From Prasinococcaceae sp. CCMP 1430 (taxonomy: Eukaryota > Prasinodermophyta > Palmophyllophyceae > Prasinococcales > Prasinococcaceae): a DNA stretch of 64,000 bases. Where the stretch lies: the NCBI GenBank assembly GCA_013416795.1, contig RQSC01000027.1, positions 267,344 through 331,343 on the forward strand, read 5' to 3'. Below the pieces are notes generated by a model that had not been told where the DNA came from, searched no databases, and worked only from the letters and a program-made list of their open reading frames with translations. Position numbers and translations under genes: made by a program. Positions 23,879-38,884 of this stretch are shown piece after piece (the first letter of the stretch is position 1; every line of letters begins with the position of its first letter).

Positions 23879-26800
23879 TCAGTTCCCAAGGGTTGGGACG
23901 ATTTTTTTCGAGTGCCTTTTGGTTCTATTCGGCGAGCCGAGCAAATTGCGAAAGAGACGCGCGCCGCGGCTCTCCCTCTTCGGGCTCGACTGCGTGCTCT
24001 TGTTGTCGGGCTCTGGCGGGGTTGAGTGCACGAAGGGCGGGCTGGGGCGCGTACTCGACTCGCTAGTGCCGATGAATGTCTCGTACAGCTTGCGGCCCGT
24101 GACTGCCGCGCCGGCCTTGAGTATGGACCACACGATATCCCTGCGCACAGTGCCAAGCAGGTCCCTCCAGTCACCCTGCGCAACGCATAGGGGAGGGGTG
24201 GCACGGTTAGCACCACGGGGCTACGTGGACGACCATCGTCTGCCACGGCAAGGGCGATGCGGGCGCGCATGCTCGCAGCGCGAGAGGCAGGCATCCTTGC
24301 GCACCTCGTACGAGTGGAAGACCCTCGGCGGGAGCTGAAAGTGCGCTGAGGAGAAGCTGAAAGGCGAGCCCGCATATGCGATCACGACCTTCACCTCATT
24401 CATGCGGATGTAGTCCGCCGTGACGCGCGTGGCAATGCTGTCAGCTGCACGCGGCGTCGGCGTGGGGGTGCTCTTGAGCCGCCGCGCCGCGGGTGGCGGC
24501 CCAGGGTCGGCCACTGCATTGAGGCTATCGACGCCCATCCTGGCAAGGACGCTGGCATCAACTGACATGGACCGCGTGTGCTTCAGCTTGCGCTTGGCCA
24601 CCCCTTTTGGTAGCCGCGATGGGCCGACATCCGATGACGGGTCGAAAAGCGAGCTCGCGTCGTCGCTGCCTGCCGAAAATGTCGATGGGATCTTGTCCGA
24701 GTCTTGTCGCCTGTGCCGCGCCGCCGAGCCTCCCCCCTTGAGGGGCGAAAACGCAAGGCCAAGCACCGTCTCCGACCGCTGACGGCGGTGGTTGAACTTC
24801 GAGTTGGAGCCGGGCGCAGGCGGCAGGGGCGCGCCACCGCCGCGCGGATGCGGGGATGCAGGTGCCACCGAGCGCTCGCCGGATGCCCCCGTGCGGCTGG
24901 CGGTTTCAGCCCAAAGCGGCCCGAGAAAGCGTTCTGCCCTGAACATCAGACTCTCGGTCACATTGATGGACAGCGGGAAGACCTGTGTCTCCAGGTGCGT
25001 CAAGAAGGTTTTGCCAGGAACTGATCTGCCCTGCTCAGCACGCACGCGCAGCATGACGTCACCCTTGCCCCAACCCGCATCCTCGTGCACCCCAAGCACG
25101 CGCCACATGCCCTGACTCGGACTGCCTGAATCGGTCGAGCAACCGCTGCTCATTCGACCGGTCGACCGTCTACTGCTTCCCCCAGACTCGGCGCCGCTGC
25201 CGACGGCGTCCACCCAAACCTTCGACACAGTTGCAATGACCTCAGCGCTCCTGTCCTCGTGGCGTGCCATCGACAGCGTCGCGCCCCGCAGCTCAACTGT
25301 GGAGAAAGGCGCAGCGCTGCTCGACGGACCACTGTCGAGGATGTCGAAGCGCGCGTCGCCGAGCGACGCTTCGACATAAACAGCCGCCGGGCGCGCGCCC
25401 TGATTGTCGTTGCCTCGGCGAGCAATCCTCTCGCGTCTGGCTGAAGCAGCCATATCGAGTACGGTGCAAAACTCACGGCCGTGCTCGCTGACCTTGTGCC
25501 GCAAAGACTCCCCAAGCGGCAACACCAGGGCGTCTGCTTTGGACGATACCATCCAGAAAGGATCTGCATATGCGATGGCGTCGGCGGGGCCTTGTCCGTG
25601 CGTGGCGAGCAGCAAATGTCGCGCGTTGGCCATGTCGGTCAGGAGGCGCGCATCTGCCACCAGCGCACAGGCGACGGTCCTAATCTCGAGGCCACTCCCA
25701 CGCACGAGAGACGCTGCTCGCAAGGCCTCGTGCACAGCGGGCGCGGACACCGGCGAGCGGCGGAAAATAACGTCCATGCGACTTCCGAGGGTCAGAGCGG
25801 CGCCGACAAGCACAGAGAACTGGTGTCCGTCGACAGCGACAGCCAAAGACGGCGAGTTCACGACGACTTCGGTCTGCTCAGCCACAGCGGCCTCGGGCGG
25901 CGTGAACTTGCGCACGCTCAGCCCCACGCGACAGCCCTCACCGCTGATGTTGCGCATCGAGGCAGTGCTAGCGGCGGACTCGCCATTCTCTGGCGCCCAC
26001 GAAAAGGTCGCGCCGGGATTGACGTCGTTGCGCGCCACCCAGGTCCTCACATTCTGCAGATTTAGCGAGTACGACGTCAAAGTGCCGCCTTGGTCGAGCA
26101 TCCCATGGCGACCAAGCAAGCGCGCCTTGCGCGATTCGAGGAGCAAGTGGCCCTCGCTGGCCGAACCAGACTGCACGCACAGTTGCGCCTTGGAGACATC
26201 AACGACGAGAAAGATCGGATCGGCGCTTTCGGGGATCGCCTGGTCATGGGCGGGGCTCGTGAACTCATCCTCGTTCGTCTCCAGATGCTTGCCTTCGGCT
26301 CTGAGCTCGGATGTCAATACACCGCGGTTCAACAAGGCGAGCAGGTCATCTCCCTTCGATTCGAAGGACTTGCCGAGGGTGCGAGCGCGACGCGCCACCT
26401 GCGGGGCTTGCCCCGGAGATGACCCCGCACCGCTGCTCTGCCGACTGGACAGGCCATGTGACGGGCCGTGGCTCAAGATGGATGCCGCCAGCGCGGCAGC
26501 CGCACGCCCCGTCCGCGAGGCGTACGGGTGCCGCAGGCCAGCGACCGTCCCGAGCCAGCATGCCATCACGGACGCACGCGTTTGGTCGGTCCACATCATG
26601 TGGAGACCGACAATGGCAATGCGCAAGCACGTGGACGGCTCACTGTCGCGAACGGCCTGCCCAAGCCTCGGGGGGGTGCCCTGGCGCACCAGCATGGCTT
26701 GCAGGGCCTCGCGGTCGTCCGGCTCGAGATCTTTCATGCTCAGGTTTCCGTGTAACCGTTGGCGGACAGAGAGGCTCGAGGCGGACGCGACAAACGTGTC

Positions 26801-29800
26801 CCTGTTGTCCTGCGTCCATGCGGCCTCGTCGCAAGCGAACCCCTGCCCAGAGCTGCACACATCGTCAAGGTCCAGATGGACACGGACGGACAGCAGATCA
26901 ACTTTGAGCTCATCGAGTGTGTTGGCAACGAATCGCATCATCACAGACAGGCTCTTGGCACGGCCGTGGAGCGAGTACAGCTCGATGTCCTGGTCCTCAC
27001 TCGGTAGCCCGGCGACGTCGAACGTCGTCGCCAGTGGTTCGACCTCGAGTTTGAAGGTACTCTCCTCCAGAATTGAGCCGAGGGAGCGACCGCGATGTCC
27101 TCGCCTCCCCGACGATGGAGCTCGTCCGCACGTGGGTGTCTGGGGCGAGGGCGTCGCGACAGCAGGCTTGCTCGAGCGCAGAGGCGAGACCTGCACCACC
27201 GACACTGGCGGACGAACGATCGCAAGCACGAAGGCCTTGAAACGCATCATGGACTCGGGAGCGAGGGACAGGTGCGCGCCCCTTCCAGCAGCATCTTCGC
27301 TTCCCGGATCGCCCCGCACCCGCATCAGCACCGTTGCTTTCACTGCTGTCGCTCGGAACGCCCGCATGCGCCGCTGAAGATTCGTGATAGCAGAGCACCT
27401 GCTCGGCGGCGTCCAGCGCGGCGTCAGAGACTCCTGGTTGACGGTGTCTGGGGTGAAGGCGTGCAGGAAGTGTTGACTTGGGTCATGATCGAAGCCGCAC
27501 TGCCAATCCATGCCCATGGAAAACTCAGCTTCAGGGGCGCGCAGCAACTCCACTGCCTCAAGATCCTCTACGTGGCTGATGCGCACATTCTTGCTACGAA
27601 CGACGAGCGAGGAAGGTGGTGCCACCTGGATGGCGGCGCCCGATGCCACCGATACGAGCCGCTGCGACCGCTCCCCCTCCCCGAGCGCACCGCACCCGCC
27701 GAGGATGGTCAGCGATGCATTGCTCACCCAGATGTCAATCTGCCCGTGCACGAGGAGGCGAAGGTCGTCCCACCAGGAGAACGCTGCCTGAGACGGCGGT
27801 GATATGAGGGCCGGGGGAGATGGCACGGGAGGCACGCTAATGGTGAGTTTGGGGCGCTGGGCGCTGTCTGCCTTGAAGGGTGAGGGCGTGGGCCCTACGT
27901 ACGCTAGGTCTCCACTCGCGGCGTCGCCATCTCTGCCTCCCTCCGAGCTGTGGAAGGACATGGCTTGGATGACGTCGCTGAGGTCGGCCTCATACCCAGG
28001 CCCGCACACAGCCCTACCGTCCTCGACAGAGACTCCCACATCGACGTAGAACTTCGTCGGTGGCGAGTGCGGTTCAAGGGCTGATTCGACCCAGTCCAAC
28101 GTGTGGCCTAGGCTGACGCGACGTTGCTCAGCCTTCGCGCACGCGTTCTTGCACTCACTTGCAAGCAGGTTGCCGCGTACCTCGGCGACGCCGGCAATGA
28201 CTCCGTACGTGTGTCCAGAGGTGAGCTGCGCGAGCGGCGATGTGTGTTGCCGAAAATGCAGGGACGCGGCACCGGAAGTCATGCTGAAAGCAAATCCCCG
28301 AGCGCGGCTCTCGTCAAGCTCCACCTCGCGCGCCGCAGGGTCTACAGATCGGGCCACGGCAATTGCCACCGCGGGTCCTGAGAGGCGTGACACGCGCAGC
28401 TTCATGTCAACGCATGTCGCCGCAACCATGCCATGCGGCGGTGGGAGCGCGTAGCCTTGCGCGCTGGCCAAATGCGGGGGATAGCGAGCGTTCGCTGCCA
28501 TTGAAGCCGTTTCCCACGCCCGCTTGAAACTCGCGAAGAGCGTGTCGTCCAAGCGCGCTCGGGCACCGACCAGCTCTGCGTCACCACCATCGAGCTGCTC
28601 TCGCGCGGCCTGCTCGAAGAGCGCCTCGCGAGCGACGCGCTCGGGAAGCGTGGCAGCCATCGCAGCGGCGCGAATAGCCATCCATCGCTCCAAAGGCGAG
28701 TCTTGCAAAGACGTTGTCAGACGCGCGATGTTGAATTGCAACACGGGCCTGATACTGCCCTGGATTTTGGTGGGAGATCGCAGGCCATTGGCAGCATCAA
28801 ACGCAGCCTTCACTGCGTCGGCAGTACTCGTGATCATGTCCATCGTCTCGTCCACCGCATTGTACGTGGCGCGGAGTCCTGTCGTAAGCGGCGCATCCAA
28901 GGCCAGCATGCTTGACTCGAGCAGCCATCGAGCCGCCGGCGCCAGCACCCTCCGAGCAGTCTCGGCGACAAAAGGAATGCTCGGTGGACGGAAGGGGGCG
29001 TCATCCAGACCTGGGCACGTGACGCCGGATGCTGCATCCTCCGCTAGTAAGTATGACGGCGGGCGGACAGTCAAGTCCGCGGCCGTCAGCATTCTGTGTC
29101 CATCGACCTCCACAGCCAGGCGCTTCAACATTACCACCGTCGACGTGCCGAAGCGCTCGAGCGCCGAAGCGCGCACCACGAACGCCTTGCCGTTCATCAG
29201 CGCAATGACAGCGCACGCATCCTTGATTTGAAAGGACAAAGAGACCACGAGGGGAATCTCAGGGGCAACACCACTCCTTGTTGTGTCCACGTCGGCGCTC
29301 GCTCTCACTGTAGCTGCCACCGCCTGCAGTGCCACGGCCACGCAGCGCACGGCCACGCAGGTCTCGACGTCGACGCACGCCTCGACGCCGGAGACGAAAA
29401 TGTGCGTGCGGGGCATGCTGTCACGCTCGCAGGCCGCTGAGTTGTCCTGGGGCCAACGCGCCGCCAACGACGCTGAGTCGACAGTGAGCAAAGCCGACGA
29501 GCCCGGCACCTCACTGGTGCCCTGGTAGCCGCGCACCCATGTCTGAGAGAGCAGGACATCCGTGGACAGCGGCACGCCGCCCTCCACCAGCTCGCCACAC
29601 ACCTCCATCTCGCCTACAACGACAGACGTTGCGAAGTCAAGGCAGGCGCATCCATCGCTCTCACGCGGGGGGTCATCCTGGCCGCGCACCACCAAGGATG
29701 GCATCGCGGGGGCTGTCGTCAATACCTGCACCTCCACTTGCACCAACCTCACGGCAAAGTTCACCCCCCGCATCGATCCCCTCCGTTCGGAATGAACAGA

Positions 29801-31654
29801 GGTTGCACGCGGCGCGCTATGCCCGGTCCCTTTACGCCACTGCTGCGACATGCCTGCGAAGAGCTCGAGCTGCTTGGTGTGCACGCAAGCCCGCGCCCCT
29901 CTGATCTCGAGCTGGATGTCATGGGGACCGTGCTGCAGGTCTTCAGGGGGGAACTCGAGCGAGGTCACCACGGACGCTGCCTGCAACAGCGGCCACGCCG
30001 AGCTGTCCAGCCGCAAGTCTGCGCCACTCATTAGCACCGTGACCTCAGCGTTGTCGTTGGTTTCTCGCACGGGTGACGGAATCACTGCTGTCACGTGCAT
30101 GGTTGCGAGCTGGAGAGACGCACTGTCCCCTTGCAGTTGCTCTGGTTCTGTGAGCTGTAGCTGCCACCCCTGCCCCTCAAGACTGAATGTCCAGTCAAGG
30201 GACTTGATGTGCGACACGATTGAATGCTCCTTGACCTCGGCCGCCATTTGCGTGGACTGTCGTGCCCGTCGTATACGCTTCAGCTGGACGTGCACACGCC
30301 TTACGTCGTCGACCCAATGCAGCAGAGCAGGTCGGTGTACCGCGCTTGCATAGTCTAGCTGCATCTGCATGCTCGCACTCAGCTCCCTCGCAGCCGGTGT
30401 ACCGTTGTCCGGCCAGCACGTCGCGTCGATGGGAAGCGGCACATCCACTGTCACCGATGTGCTAGAGCTCCAAACCATGCTGAGCGCCTTCTCAGCCGTC
30501 GCAACTTCTCGGGGCCGCGAGGGATACCGCGCGTTCTCAGCCCGCAGGACGACCCTGGCCCTCGAGCACGCCGAGGAAAGTGACGCACGCCAGCAGTCCC
30601 GGTCAAACTTAACTGCAGTGCGAAGGGCAGAGCACTCGGCTTCGATGGGACGTATGGTCCTGCCTTCAGGATCTTCCATGAGCACGCACACACCAATCGA
30701 GCAAACCTGCAGCGACAGCTCTAGCGGGCACCCCTCAATCAGCTCGAGGAGGTCAGCCCCACGGTCTGCACTCTCGCCCGCGTTGCCACGTTGGTCGACC
30801 TCGGCGACTCGCAGGGCGGCGTGGGCTCGCACGAGCACCGCAGCGTCCGAGCATGAAACTGCAACACCGCTGCACAAACTCTCAACAGCATTCAGCCGCA
30901 GCATTGCCTGCACCTTCAAGTGCTCGAGGTCCGCATCGACGACATCCGTGGAAGCGCAGACGTGTCCCATTATTGCGACCACGTTGGCAGACTCTGGTTG
31001 CAGCGTCACGCAGCGCAGAGACATGTTACGCACGCCCACATTCCCGGTGGCCGCGCGGGTATCCGCCGCGCCGCTGAGGTGCACTGTCGCGTTGACGACG
31101 CGGACCTCGACAAGCTGCGCGAGCCGCTGCAGCGCGCCGAACTTGGCCTCATCGATGCGCCTCCCGAGGAGCCGCACGCCCTCGGCGCGCCTCTCGGAAT
31201 TTTCCGATCCGAGCTTGTGCCGCTCCCTCCTGGCGTCGGCCGCTTGCTGTCGTTGCCGCGCCCTCCTTTGCTGCTGCTCCGCCGCGCGCTGCCTGGTGCC
31301 AGCAGCATCCAAGCTCGCGAGCACGACTTCGACGTCTTTGACGACGACCGGGAACGCAGCGCCGCCCCTCGCAAATGCGAGCTTGAGCACCGATATCCAC
31401 GACGGCAAGAGCGCGATCTCGCCTACCCTGAGCGACTCAATCACACCATTGCCGCGTTCGAAGGCGACGCTCACGCCACGCAGCTTCCATTCCGCCGGTG
31501 ACGCGTGCCTCACTGACGCGCGCGCGCCAGGGACGAGCCCACGTAGCCACACGGCGACGCATGCGCCCAGTGCCCGCCGCGCCCAGTGGTGGACCGCGTG
31601 GACCGCGACGAATGCGAGCGTGAGCAGCACCGCAGCGGCAACTGCTGCTCCCAT
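23879..31654 (-). CDS. Bridge-like lipid transfer protein, SABRE/KINKY POLLEN/FMP27/Hobbit (BLTP2) family
   Basis: About 2548 residues: exon 1 31654-24305 (2450 residues) and exon 2 24175-23879, joined over a 129-nt phase-0 intron (GAG/GTGCGC ... TTGCGCAG). It starts with a membrane helix (about residues 5-27) and SW(I)SVLKLAF, as in RBG/bridge-like lipid transfer proteins; a long series of beta-rich repeats follows. The C-terminal Golgi-body/Apt1-type motif is YIRMNEVKVVIAYAGSPFSF and, rebuilt across the splice, FHSYEGDWRDLLGTVRRDI followed by VWSILKAG, matching the family's TWRDLLxxLKKHIIWDVLKS pattern. These proteins form hydrophobic grooves that move phospholipids between ER and plasma membrane; plant SABRE affects cell expansion and polarity. 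Reading through the intron would give a wrong C-terminus of about 28 residues. Confidence 0.82.
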
Positions 31655-32211
31655 CGCGCCCGGGTACAGCGCAGCCCCCTACGCCGTATCCCCCTTCCCT
31701 CCCTTCCCAGCGTGCGCCTGCGCGTGCGCGCGCCACGCTGGCGTTTTCCTCCTGCGCGTGTTTCAAACGCCCACGAGGGCCGCCGGGTGCACCGGCCGCT
31801 GCCGCCAAAGCCGGTCTCCGCAGCGGCAACCCGCAACCCCCGGGCGGCCCTCGCGGCGGCCACGAAGGGTGCTGCGGCGGCGACCGCCGCCGCCGCCGCC
31901 GCGCCAGGGAGCGCCGCGCGCGCCCGCGCGCGCGCGCACGCGCCGGGCGCGCGCACTGTGGCTGGCGCGCAGTCGTGTCTTCGCGCCGCACAAGAAGACA
32001 CGCAAAAGTACAGTAAAAAAAGTGCCGTCTGGCATCTGCCATCGAATGCCATTGAACGTGCCATGAATGTGCCATGTGCCATTAATTGGCATGTGGATCA
32101 GGACCAGTCCAGGCGGCACTGACAGGACAGCTTGGGCTTCGGCGCTGGCCCTGGAGCGAGATCTGTGATCTGTGGTTTGTATTATTGATTACGTCACCCA
32201 CGGCGTAGCCC
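31655..32211. promoter_or_regulatory. Divergent promoter region (BLTP2-like / PIG-V)
   Basis: 557 nt. The BLTP2 side is extremely GC-rich; from about 31990 the base composition drops and the TGCCAT cluster (32037-32092) appears, then ATTATTGATTACGTCA near 32180. No gene seen apart from a possible first exon of PIG-V that I cannot place. Confidence 0.4.
32037..32092. promoter_or_regulatory. Cluster of five TGCCAT hexamers with an inverted copy
   Basis: TGCCAT begins at 32037, 32047, 32059, 32070 and 32077, i.e. spacings of 10, 12, 11 and 7 nt, close to the helical repeat, followed by GGCAT at 32088-32092 in the opposite sense (another GGCAT at 32031). It lies in the shared divergent region. 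This looks like an arrayed protein-binding site, but no named factor is claimed. Confidence 0.5.
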
Positions 32212-34525: not shown

Positions 34526-37500
34526 TCATGTGCCCGTGATATCGCCGCTTGTGCTTGGAGGACGCAGCGGTTCGCTCGCCCTGCGGCTCAAGGCCCGTAT
34601 CTCGGCCATTCGCTCACCCGCCACGACCTGCACCTCCTCGAGTGCCGCGGGATGGCGCTGAACGGCCTCCTGCCACTCGTCGCGGTCGAGCCGGAGAAGC
34701 TGGCATCCCTCGTCGCCCGTCACGACCGTTGCGACGCGAAGGCTGTCTGGGTTTAGAAGCGCCATCTCGCCAAAGTAGTCGCCCGTGCGAAGAATTTTCT
34801 GGCCCTCGCCGTCCGTGATGGCGGAGTCGCTCCCGCTTCTCGCCATTGACTTCCCAGGATCTGCGTCGTGCAGCTGCACAATCGCGCTGCCACTGTGGAT
34901 GAAGTACATCGAGTCCCCCCGATCACCGCGTCTGACGACGACCTCGCCAGGATCCATTGTCTCAAGCGCGAGCTCGGCAAAGAGCTCGTCGCAAAGCTGC
35001 GGGTGGTGCTGCATGAATGGACACTCGCGCAAGAGCTGGGCAACGCCACGGGTGAGAAAGAGAGTGCTTGCTTGGCGCGTTGTGGCTGTGCGCCTAATTG
35101 CACGCAGCGTGTCGGGAAAGTTCGCCATGACGTGGCTAAAGTCGTCCTCGTTGAGCACCAGCACTTGCACGCCCCTCTCGCCAGCACGCACGTCTGCATT
35201 GCGCTTGCTGTGGGTTTCGATGAGCGCGCCCTCGCCGAAGAAGTCGCCTAATTTGAGGCGTACCACGCCACTGCGCGAAGCGCCGCCGCGTTCATGGGCG
35301 CGCGCGCCCGAGCTCCGAACCGACGCATCCTCAGGGATCGTCGCGGGCGCCGAGCGCCGCGAGCTCCGCAAGGTCTTGCCCGCTTTGCTTGGCAGAAGAA
35401 CTTCGGCAGTGCCGTCGTAACAAAAGAACATCTCCCGCCCGATGTCGCCTCTGCGCACAATGTACTCTCCCGGTCGATACGATCTGAGTTGCATGCGCGG
35501 GAAAAGAGCGACCGCGACCTCTGAGCCCTCGTCGCCTTGCGAGAAGAGCGGGCATACCGCGACGATGCGAGCAGCGTTGTGCATTGCGTTCTCAGTCTGC
35601 CTGCCCTCTGCCGTCGTGGACACCTTCTCGGCAAAGTCGGAATCTCTGATGAGGATGGCGTCCCTGTCGTCCTTGTCGAGCTTCATGAGCTCGCACCGCG
35701 GACTCTCAACGATGATGCTGGCCGTGCGCCCAGTGTCTGTAGCCATCTCGCCGAAGAACGCGCCCTGGCCGAGCCCAGCCACGCGGTCACCCGGCAGCTT
35801 GAGCTTGCCGTCGTCGCCGTCGGGCTTGGCGACGTACACACCAAGCTCACCCCTTGTGACAAAGTAGACGCCGTCGCTGGGATCCCCCTGTCGGAAGACG
35901 TGCTTGCCCTTGCGCAGCTTGACCGAGTGAAGTGCGTCCAGGATCTGCTGGATGGACTGAAACGACAGCCCGCTGAGGCTCGGCAGCTGGAGAAGCGTTC
36001 TTCCCAGGATGTCCAAGTGGTTTGGTTTATGCGCGCGGACGAACGCGGTCAGCAGATTCGTCTGTGCCAGCTGTTCCATCCACTCCTTGTTGCGCTTGTC
36101 GCCGCTGACACCCTCGACCATGGCGCCTTCGAGAAAGAGACGGAGGCGCTCGACAGCGCCATCCGGCGCGGTCACAGACTGGGTTATCACATGCGCTTCG
36201 ACGTGGGTCATCAAGGCACCAATATACTCGCGCATCACGCCGAGGAACTGGTTTGCAGCGGTAGCCTGGGCAGCCGTGACAGAGTGAAGAGGCCGAGAGG
36301 GCGGTGCACGGGACATGTACGTCGAGCTTTCGCTGCTGCCGGCAAACGAGACCGGGCGGCGCAGGCCGATGCCAAACATGCCACCGCCGCCTCCGCTCTC
36401 GGCAGGCAGCCCCTCGCGTGCGACGACGCGTCCTTCGTCCCACAAGATCTGGTGGCTTCCATGCAGGGCCGCTGCTAGGGCGGTCGCACCCGGCAGCGTG
36501 GGAAGCATCCCGGGAGCCTTGACTTTGTTCGCGGAAAGGTCGCAGATGACGAGGCGGTCCTTGTCGACGCCCGTCGCCTTTCCCGCCCGCTTTTCGTCCG
36601 GCATACCGACGACGAAGCCGTGCGTGCGCCCTTTCTGCACGCGGCGCTCGAAGCCGGGCCCAACGATGGGTACGAGGTTCGACATGGGAAGAAGCGGCCA
36701 AAGCAGGGGCGCCAACGCGAGCACCGAGGCCGTCAGCACGCCCAGGTTCTTGTGAGTCAGAACAACAGGATATTCCAGCAACGCCGCACTCATGAGGAGG
36801 AGGCAGTTGTCCACGCTGAGCGTGGCGCAAAGCGCCGGGATAGCCCAGGTCGCAATTGCTGATGCCTCCTCAGCCTCCTGCGCCCATCTCCTCGGAGGCA
36901 TGCCGTCTTGCAGCGGGAGGCCGCCTGCTCCACGCTCCAGCACCGCGTGGGCGGCGCTGTCTCCGTGCTCCGTGGGCACGTCAGCGCGCGGGACGCGTAG
37001 CTCAGCGCCACTGTCCTTGAAGTGCCCGATCTCCCCCCTCAAGGGCACTCGCAACTTGTGATAGGCGCGCAGCGTGTCGTCGGGCGGAGCGATGCCGGCC
37101 ACTTTGCCGCCGCAGAGCGCCCCAAGGCACCTCAGCCGCTGGCGCTCGGCCAGCGCGTGGAGCACATTCCACGTGGTGGTGAAGAGCGCCTGCCGGGTCA
37201 GGAAGCAGTATACGCGCCTGGTCACGACGAAGCGGCGTTGCCGCCCGCCCGCCATGCGAGCTGCGCCCGTCGCTGCCTCCCTCCGAAAGCCGTCGCTGTC
37301 CTCGCACAGCAGGGGCGGCGCGTCCAGGAGCTCGTCGGCAGCCAGGCACACAACCCAGAACGGGCGCCTTCCACCCATTTGCGCGCCTGGTTGGAATCGC
37401 AGCAAGTACGCTCCCTCAGTGGACTCGAGCGCCCCCTTGCGCATCGCCATGTCATCGAGCGCCCCGGCCAGCAGCGGGCTGCCCTGCGCACCGGGCAGCG

Positions 37501-38188
37501 CCGAGCAGCGCGCGCCCGCGGGCATGACCATTTCTGGAAGGTTTTTGAGAACCCGGCGCAGATTGGCGCCGCGTACGCCATCCCCGTCGTTGGTCCCATA
37601 CGCATGGATCCTGCCGGTGCTATTGAATGTCTTGCCGGGCGCAAACGCGGACAGCAGCACGGGCTTCTCCATCCATGCCAGCGTCCCTCCGCCGCGGCGC
37701 GGCGTGCCCTTCGACTGCCCGCTGGGTGGCTTCGCACCAGGTGGTGCGCCCACTACCGCGAAGAGCTCGTAGGCGGGATCCGAAAGCTGCGCAGCGGTCG
37801 CGGCTGCGGGTGACAGCGAGATGCCGGTGGCGACCTGCATGAGCGCGCTTCCGGCCCTGCCGCTCTGCGGCGTCGCGGGCGTTGGAGGTGACGCCATCGC
37901 GGAGGTCACAGATGGAGAGGCACTTGTCGCCTCCGAGGCCGCCGACGCGTGCCTCGAGTATGGTGGGCTCGACGCACTGACACTGCCGCTCGCCGCGGAA
38001 CTCGTTGCCGCATGGGTTGCGCGGTCGCGGCTCTCGGCCTGCGCCACGACTGCCAAGAATTCCATCTGCCAACCGAGCATCTCGGGATCGCGCAGAGCAA
38101 TCTCCTCAGTCAGCTTGAACTGCCGCCGGCGCTTCACTTGCCGGCGGAAGCGCCGCGCGATGCGCTCCCACATTGTGAACACCCCCAT
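34526..38188 (-). CDS. DENN-domain protein with three cyclic-nucleotide-binding domains
   Basis: 1220 residues, single exon. N-terminal half: DENN module, with upstream part PAYELFAVVGAP (about residue 140), FTTTWNVLHALAERQRL (about 340), then LSVDNCLLLMSAALLEYPVV (about 460), VLALAPLLWPLLPMSNLVPI, VVGMP and DRLVICDLSANKV, the core DENN pattern; DENN proteins are exchange factors for Rab GTPases. C-terminal half: three CNB domains with phosphate-binding cassettes FFGEMATDTGRTAS (about 814), FFGEGALIETHSKRNADV (about 984) and YFGEMALLNPDSLRVATV (about 1139). Each keeps the cassette Glu and Arg that contact cAMP/cGMP, so all look binding-competent. A Rab exchange factor switched by cyclic nucleotides is the natural inference. 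ATG 38188 is preferred; the open frame upstream is a pentamer repeat without ATG. Confidence 0.85.
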   Translation of the reverse strand: MGVFTMWERIARRFRRQVKRRRQFKLTEEIALRDPEMLGWQMEFLAVVAQAESRDRATHAATSSAASGSVSASSPPYSRHASAASEATSASPSVTSAMASPPTPATPQSGRAGSALMQVATGISLSPAAATAAQLSDPAYELFAVVGAPPGAKPPSGQSKGTPRRGGGTLAWMEKPVLLSAFAPGKTFNSTGRIHAYGTNDGDGVRGANLRRVLKNLPEMVMPAGARCSALPGAQGSPLLAGALDDMAMRKGALESTEGAYLLRFQPGAQMGGRRPFWVVCLAADELLDAPPLLCEDSDGFRREAATGAARMAGGRQRRFVVTRRVYCFLTRQALFTTTWNVLHALAERQRLRCLGALCGGKVAGIAPPDDTLRAYHKLRVPLRGEIGHFKDSGAELRVPRADVPTEHGDSAAHAVLERGAGGLPLQDGMPPRRWAQEAEEASAIATWAIPALCATLSVDNCLLLMSAALLEYPVVLTHKNLGVLTASVLALAPLLWPLLPMSNLVPIVGPGFERRVQKGRTHGFVVGMPDEKRAGKATGVDKDRLVICDLSANKVKAPGMLPTLPGATALAAALHGSHQILWDEGRVVAREGLPAESGGGGGMFGIGLRRPVSFAGSSESSTYMSRAPPSRPLHSVTAAQATAANQFLGVMREYIGALMTHVEAHVITQSVTAPDGAVERLRLFLEGAMVEGVSGDKRNKEWMEQLAQTNLLTAFVRAHKPNHLDILGRTLLQLPSLSGLSFQSIQQILDALHSVKLRKGKHVFRQGDPSDGVYFVTRGELGVYVAKPDGDDGKLKLPGDRVAGLGQGAFFGEMATDTGRTASIIVESPRCELMKLDKDDRDAILIRDSDFAEKVSTTAEGRQTENAMHNAARIVAVCPLFSQGDEGSEVAVALFPRMQLRSYRPGEYIVRRGDIGREMFFCYDGTAEVLLPSKAGKTLRSSRRSAPATIPEDASVRSSGARAHERGGASRSGVVRLKLGDFFGEGALIETHSKRNADVRAGERGVQVLVLNEDDFSHVMANFPDTLRAIRRTATTRQASTLFLTRGVAQLLRECPFMQHHPQLCDELFAELALETMDPGEVVVRRGDRGDSMYFIHSGSAIVQLHDADPGKSMARSGSDSAITDGEGQKILRTGDYFGEMALLNPDSLRVATVVTGDEGCQLLRLDRDEWQEAVQRHPAALEEVQVVAGERMAEIRALSRRASEPLRPPSTSGDITGT

Positions 38189-38884
38189 TGCGCCGACCTC
38201 TTGACGTGGTACCGCACAGGGCGGCGCCTTGCGTTTCCCCCCAGAGCACGCGGCCGGAGCAACGCGGTCGCTGCACGCCCGGCCCGGCGCGCCGCACGAG
38301 CCGCGCCGCGCGGCACGCCTGACGCCTGCGCCCGCGTTCTCCCCAGACGGCAGAAGCCTCGCCCGCAGTGCGCCACGCCGAGCCGAGCCGAGCCGAGCCG
38401 AGCCGAGCCGAGCCGAGCCGAGCGATGCGCGCTGTGGCGCGCCCGCACGCGCGCGCGCACTCACGGCCCAGCTCGCAACAGCCTCGCACACACGTGCTGC
38501 GTGCGTGCTCGCTCGCCTGCATCATCGGCAGTGCATCGCTCCTCTCCCTTCGCGGGACGCTCCTACGTCACACGCCGCCCGCGGCAAAAGAATCAGGGCA
38601 ATGCATCGATGCCTTCCATACGTACTTTCCTCACGGCGTATATTCGTATGCGCGTCCACAGGTCAGGCGCACGCTCGCCGCGGCGCGCTTGTCGTATTTG
38701 GCGCGCGCGCGCCGCTTTTTCGCGTTTCGAAAGCAGTGCCGGCGCAGCGCGCGCGCGCGGCACACCCGGCGCGGGCGGCGCGAACAGCCGCCCTCGGTCT
38801 GAAGGCAGGCCTCTGACGCGGAGCGCGCGGGGCAAGGGGTGGGGGGCGCACGCCTCACGCGCCGCGCGCGCGGCCGCGGAGTGT
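38189..38884. promoter_or_regulatory. Divergent promoter region (DENN-CNB / unknown membrane protein)
   Basis: 696 nt, containing the GCCGA pentamer repeat and a (CG)-rich stretch. No further gene seen. Confidence 0.35.
38377..38418 (+). repeat. (GCCGA)n pentamer repeat, about 8 units
   Basis: Uninterrupted GCCGA units in the 5' region of the DENN-CNB gene; read on the minus strand they give SARLG repeats, but no ATG precedes them in frame. Confidence 0.9.

Follow-up and report, generated by a model that had tools for sequence, protein, structure and literature searches.

Does a single gene join a DENN module to cyclic-nucleotide-binding (CNB) domains, and if so, could its product carry a second-messenger signal to a traffic GTPase? 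To our knowledge, a link between a second messenger and a traffic GTPase is otherwise described via kinases such as PKA, or via the Rap regulator EPAC. The question is raised by an open frame at 34526-38188 on the minus strand of the window analysed here, a stretch of DNA of 64,000 nucleotides that is 67% G+C and lies on one contig (C73 in our analysis) of a 24.5-Mb, 145-contig assembly. The neighbouring genes are ordinary eukaryotic ones and encode a PIG-V mannosyltransferase, an EF-hand protein, a Hobbit/FMP27-type protein, a CPSF1/DDB1-type protein and a gamma-tubulin complex component. The window positions 24221-31675 form a single open frame of 2484 codons with Hobbit/FMP27 (bridge-like lipid transfer) similarity.

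One open frame spans the DENN and CNB parts

The frame is 1220 codons long and has no internal stop, which bears out both the extent and the single exon given by the initial annotation (Table 1). Codon log-odds, trained on five other long ORFs within the window, favoured this frame almost throughout, from ~38180 to 34526, and the signal dropped upstream of the ATG and directly past the stop. It peaked at 36260-35660, the junction between the DENN part and CNB1. Because the coding signal is continuous and strong over this junction, the join itself is coding sequence and we discount a chance read-through. To the extent that genomic sequence can tell, the DENN and CNB parts thus belong to one uninterrupted gene. 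We also considered a reading as two separate genes, and rejected it because the signal is unbroken from one part to the other. Immediately upstream of the ATG, at 38370-38430 of the window, there is a GC-rich pentanucleotide tandem repeat, (GAGCC)n.

Table 1 Features of the DENN-CNB gene. Residue numbers are those of the 1331-codon stop-to-stop frame, not of the 1220-aa protein.
Feature	Position in window	Strand	Description
Whole gene	34526..38188	-	ATG at 38188, stop at 34526; 1220 aa; continuous coding signal
N-terminal basic stretch, then Ser/Ala/Pro-rich low-complexity region	37830..38188	-	from sequence
u-DENN/longin-like region (AYELFAVVGAPPG ... RRVYCFLTRQALFTTTWNVLHALAERQRL)	37082..37804	-	no Pfam match; weak collinearity with C49
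Core DENN domain (PF02141)	36404..36880	-	E 1.2e-5; well conserved in its first half and divergent in its second, with W..PVLP..APxP lost
d-DENN-like region (FLGVMREYIGALMTHVEAHVITQ ... WMEQLAQTNLLTAFVRA)	36032..36256	-	no Pfam match; weak similarity to C49
CNB1	35567..35986	-	non-canonical; best Pfam stretch residues 867-957; 55.5 bits; AF2 pLDDT 88.6
CNB1 phosphate-binding cassette FGEMATDTGRTASII	35711..35755	-	Glu-to-Arg spacing 6
CNB2	35102..35584	-	27.6 bits; ~40-residue basic/Ser-rich insert ahead of cassette
CNB2 cassette FGEGALIETHSKRNADV	35189..35239	-	spacing 9; Glu, Arg kept
CNB3	34589..35053	-	most canonical of the three; 54.4 bits
CNB3 cassette FGEMALLNPDSLRVATV	34724..34774	-	spacing 9; Glu, Arg kept

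The DENN core is recognisable and its presumed flanking domains match no profile

The DENN core scored 25.7 bits against PF02141 (E 1.2e-5), a modest margin over the cut-off of 23.4, and the genome profile scan placed its match at 36536-36844. The nearest DENN relative that we found is a paralogue on another contig of the same genome (C49, locus L025), to which the core aligned with 39% identity (E 7e-6) and a Smith-Waterman z of 15.6, with 0 of 500 shuffles as good. The C49 gene has a strong Pfam match to DENN and weak ones to uDENN and dDENN, and because u-, c- and d-DENN parts can all be recognised in this homologue, it supports the reading of the core in the window gene. Both PF02141 and the similarity to C49 therefore identify the core (c-DENN) domain of a DENN-domain protein. 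In contrast to the window gene, the C49 gene is in pieces, no CNB was found with it, and it keeps the stretch W..PVLP..APxP in the second half of the core. This stretch, which is common to C49, human DENND1B and a third DENN locus in the genome (on contig C4, DENND1-like; PDB 3tw8, E 1.6e-32) but is not a formal family-defining feature, reads PLLPMSNLVPIVGPGFERRVQKGRTHGFVVG when the window gene is aligned, so that the signature is lost.

The flanking regions are less clear. No uDENN or dDENN profile of Pfam reached threshold in the window gene. By eye, the blocks expected of u-DENN stand in the correct order before the core (AYELFAVVGAPPG, LPEMVMPAG and RRVYCFLTRQALFTTTWNVLHALAERQRL), as do those expected of d-DENN after it (MREYIGALMTHVEAHVITQ and WMEQLAQTNLLTAFVRA), and global alignment to C49 gave weak signals for the u region (z ~2.2, 11/400 shuffles) and the d core (z ~2.4, 7/400 shuffles). 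Single-sequence AlphaFold2 of the DENN region was uninformative (mean pLDDT 34.5). Taken together, the sequence comparisons suggest that a tripartite DENN module is probably present but divergent. What had been annotated as a full DENN module is thus supported for its core, and its completeness in the u-DENN and d-DENN parts, where profile matches are lacking, is not demonstrated. The label Rab-GEF, which the same annotation attached to the module, was an assumption: the core signature is lost, and Avl9 and DENND6A have been reported to be Arf-family GAPs (preprint, PMC12803157). Since monomeric DENN proteins include such GAPs, Rab-GEF is no safe default (PMC12803157).

Two canonical CNB domains and one atypical one

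The CNB region matched PF00027 (cNMP_binding) with E 5.4e-43 and 145 bits against a cut-off of 27.5, in four stretches. These represent three CNB domains, because a low-complexity insert splits CNB2, and the genome scan picked up each of them on its own (55.5 bits for CNB1, 27.6 for the second part of CNB2, 54.4 for CNB3). In the PDB, the region is related by sequence to HCN channels, PKA regulatory subunits, PKG, EPAC2 and SthK; CNB3 has at most 41% identity with bacterial CNBs. All three domains contain FGE and the cassette Arg, and all three retain the Ala202-equivalent. CNB2 and CNB3 also have the canonical cassette (Glu, 8-9 residues, Arg) and the Gly of the beta2-beta3 loop, both of which are absent in CNB1. 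From these residues, CNB2 and CNB3 look competent for cyclic-nucleotide binding.

We aligned CNB1 with 43 bacterial CNBs and with the window's own CNB2 and CNB3. In CNB1 alone there are six residues between the Glu and the Arg, compared to eight or nine in all the others, and its cassette falls two residues short of the normal length. In the beta2-beta3 loop CNB1 has Ser, where 43 of the 45 other domains have Gly and the remaining two have Ala. This double departure is notable because Kannan et al. 2007 (PMC2246266) report that a Gly of this loop and the Arg of the cassette evolved in concert. AlphaFold2, run with this alignment, nevertheless gave a model of CNB1 with a mean pLDDT of 88.6 and a pTM of 0.80, which Foldseek matched to CNBs of PKG, PKA RIalpha, CAP and SthK in the PDB at E ~1e-10, but in which no helix was assigned in the cassette. 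All three domains can thus be assigned the CNB fold, CNB1 by its model and PDB matches and CNB2 and CNB3 by sequence, and on the model CNB1 would be a CNB fold in which binding is doubtful. The initial annotation had called all three CNBs binding-competent on the strength of the Glu and the Arg. These residues are indeed in place throughout, but the claim goes too far for CNB1, with its spacing of six, its Ser and the missing cassette helix of its model.

The genome encodes a wide cyclic-nucleotide signalling system

Profile scans located at least 39 CNB places in the genome, together with seven or more loci for class III cyclases, several PDEase_I loci and 29 Ras-superfamily matches; PKG-like kinases and CNG/HCN-type channels are also encoded. 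According to Pfam, 17 other CNB frames include kinases, a PP2C-CNB-kinase, cation channels, a sulfate permease-STAS-CNB, a four-CNB protein and a Dpy-30/2-CNB protein, and no second GTPase-regulator fusion was among those surveyed. With cyclic-nucleotide signalling this wide and CNBs placed on many outputs, a CNB-DENN fusion is plausible and somewhat less astonishing.

Comparison with known regulators

The closest parallel is EPAC (RAPGEF3/4), in which CNB domains and a small-GTPase regulator share one polypeptide and cyclic nucleotide is coupled to a GTPase with no kinase in between, as we predict for the window protein; EPAC2 structures (1o7f, 2byv and 4f7z) are among the sequence matches of the latter's CNB regions. 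EPAC, however, is a CDC25-type RasGEF that acts on Rap, with a DEP domain and its CNB(s) N-terminal to the GEF, whereas in the window protein the DENN core is N-terminal and the three CNBs are C-terminal. A Pfam scan of the window protein found neither a CDC25-homology RasGEF nor a DEP domain, and we rejected membership in the EPAC family for this reason. Dictyostelium GbpC/GbpD (GefT/GefU) are likewise GEF proteins with cyclic-nucleotide-binding domains, and have been judged convergent, an independent invention of a cyclic-nucleotide-linked GEF (PMC1273635). They differ in having a RasGEF rather than a DENN domain, and their GRAM, LRR or kinase parts are missing in the window protein. The tandem CNBs recall PKA regulatory subunits and PKG, whose domains are among the matches of the CNB1 model, but here there are three, with a DENN core and without a kinase or docking/dimerisation domain. 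Since a Pfam scan at E 10 showed no protein kinase domain and no PKA-R docking domain, membership in these families was also rejected.

On the DENN side, the core resembles that of DENND1A/B (connecdenn) in alignment, with a phmmer E of only 2.9 to DENND1A. These proteins are without CNBs, DENND1B has the signature APMPY stretch that the window protein lacks, and the window's u- and d-DENN are not recognisable by profile. We know of no CNB domain in Avl9 or DENND6A. These two resemble the window protein as monomeric DENN proteins that are possibly not Rab-GEFs (PMC12803157). We found no description of a DENN and CNB fusion in the literature searched, a limited collection in which absence is not proof, and this is consistent with the initial impression that the architecture is unfamiliar among Rab regulators; one paper that did match, PMC9436416, matched through a surname. 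A keyword search of the survey of DENN proteins by Zhang et al. 2012 (PMC3521125) returned no mention of cyclic nucleotides, and Kannan et al. 2007 (PMC2246266), surveying CNB domains, name EPAC and PDZ-GEF as GEF classes and leave DENN unmentioned. Scans of IMG/VR detected no relatives of the DENN half, the CNB half or the DENN core profile. From its domains, we predict that the window protein is a cyclic-nucleotide-linked GTPase regulator built on DENN instead of RasGEF.

A possible cyclic-nucleotide-gated DENN regulator

By analogy with EPAC, we give about even weight to the proposal that cyclic nucleotide gates the DENN module of the protein, and that the module targets a Rab- or Arf-family GTPase as a GEF or possibly a GAP. 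The tandem CNBs, C-terminal to a divergent DENN module, would most likely gate that module much as CNBs gate the RasGEF of EPAC. The ligand of CNB2 and CNB3 would be cAMP or cGMP, produced by class III cyclases of the cell, and binding might shift hinge helices such that a contact with the DENN module is relieved or imposed. CNB1, directly after the d-DENN-like helices, may bind ligand weakly or in an altered way, its main role being that of a hinge or coupling domain. The DENN module would then act on its GTPase, and a change in cyclic nucleotide could alter vesicle traffic with no kinase step. Gating, ligand and target GTPase alike are inferred. This gated reading is supported by the unbroken frame and coding signal across the junction, by the Pfam matches of the three CNBs and the DENN core, by the homology of the core to C49, by the CNB fold of the CNB1 model, by the Glu and Arg of CNB2 and CNB3 at a spacing of nine and by the Ala202-equivalent in all three CNBs, by the cyclases, PDEs, PKG-like kinases, channels and Ras-superfamily genes of the same genome, and by the fact that CNB-linked GEFs arose more than once, in EPAC and in GbpC/GbpD. 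Counting against it are the u-DENN and d-DENN regions without a profile match, the lost core signature and the atypical CNB1.

The same observations leave room for other explanations. The fusion could be real and responsive to cyclic nucleotides while its DENN module works as a GAP on an Arf-like GTPase, or as a scaffold that binds a GTPase and so brings the cyclic-nucleotide sensor to a membrane. We consider this unlikely, though it is the most serious of the alternatives: W..PVLP..APxP is absent from the core and Arf-family GAPs do exist among monomeric DENN proteins (preprint, PMC12803157), but the longin arginine-finger loop that defines DENN-GAPs is not locatable without a confident longin model. 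Moreover, residues at the Rab contact diverge broadly among DENN proteins (PMC3438538), so that divergence does not prove a different activity and the signature loss does not decide between GEF and GAP. More improbable still is a mainly structural role for the CNBs, or another ligand, which would leave a trafficking regulator outside cyclic-nucleotide control. CNB1, in which two cassette residues and the Arg-coupled Gly are missing, would fit this explanation, and some eukaryotic CNBs have non-canonical cassettes, such as that of PDZ-GEF (PMC2246266), or bind nucleosides (PMC10959531). In the nucleoside-binding PKA-R of kinetoplastids, however, the Ala202-equivalent is not kept and is Glu instead (PMC10959531), whereas CNB2 and CNB3 keep this Ala along with the Glu and the Arg, and the organism has both cyclases and PDEs. 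Finally, DENN and CNB could be two genes or a join made by assembly error. Significant DENN homology, in the Smith-Waterman comparison with C49, does stop well before the junction, but there is no stop and no frame change, and the gene's strongest in-frame coding signal lies over the junction itself, so that we regard such an origin as very improbable.

Returning to the gated regulator, if the anatomy reflects function, a second messenger would be tied directly to a membrane-traffic GTPase. It would also add an independent case of CNBs recruited to control a GTPase regulator, in a lineage with many CNB fusions. More tentatively, and with somewhat less than even confidence, we propose that the protein represents an undescribed class, an "EPAC of vesicle traffic", in which cAMP or cGMP, by binding to a C-terminal CNB array, would switch the activity of a DENN module towards a Rab or Arf GTPase. 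A coupling of this kind would be directly testable on one recombinant protein.

Other CNB frames in the genome

Several of the other CNB frames have unusual architectures. A PACRG stretch, two CNBs and a protein kinase share one open frame at L115:1216-3888 (G000:C43 ~418215-420887), a PACRG-PKG fusion that possibly has a ciliary role. Two further unusual CNB fusions, each in one frame, are the sulfate permease-STAS-CNB at L126:2-3004 (G000:C89) and an MA3-kinase-CNB at L127:2-2170 (G000:C82). The PP2C-CNB-kinase frame lies at L118:313-3729 (G000:C43); this architecture has been called plant-specific (PMC2246266), and the frame may hint at a green-lineage organism. Two CNB-channel frames on different contigs, L121 (G000:C19) and L122 (G000:C52), have identical domain positions and near-equal scores, which suggests that the assembly retains an uncollapsed duplicate or haplotig.
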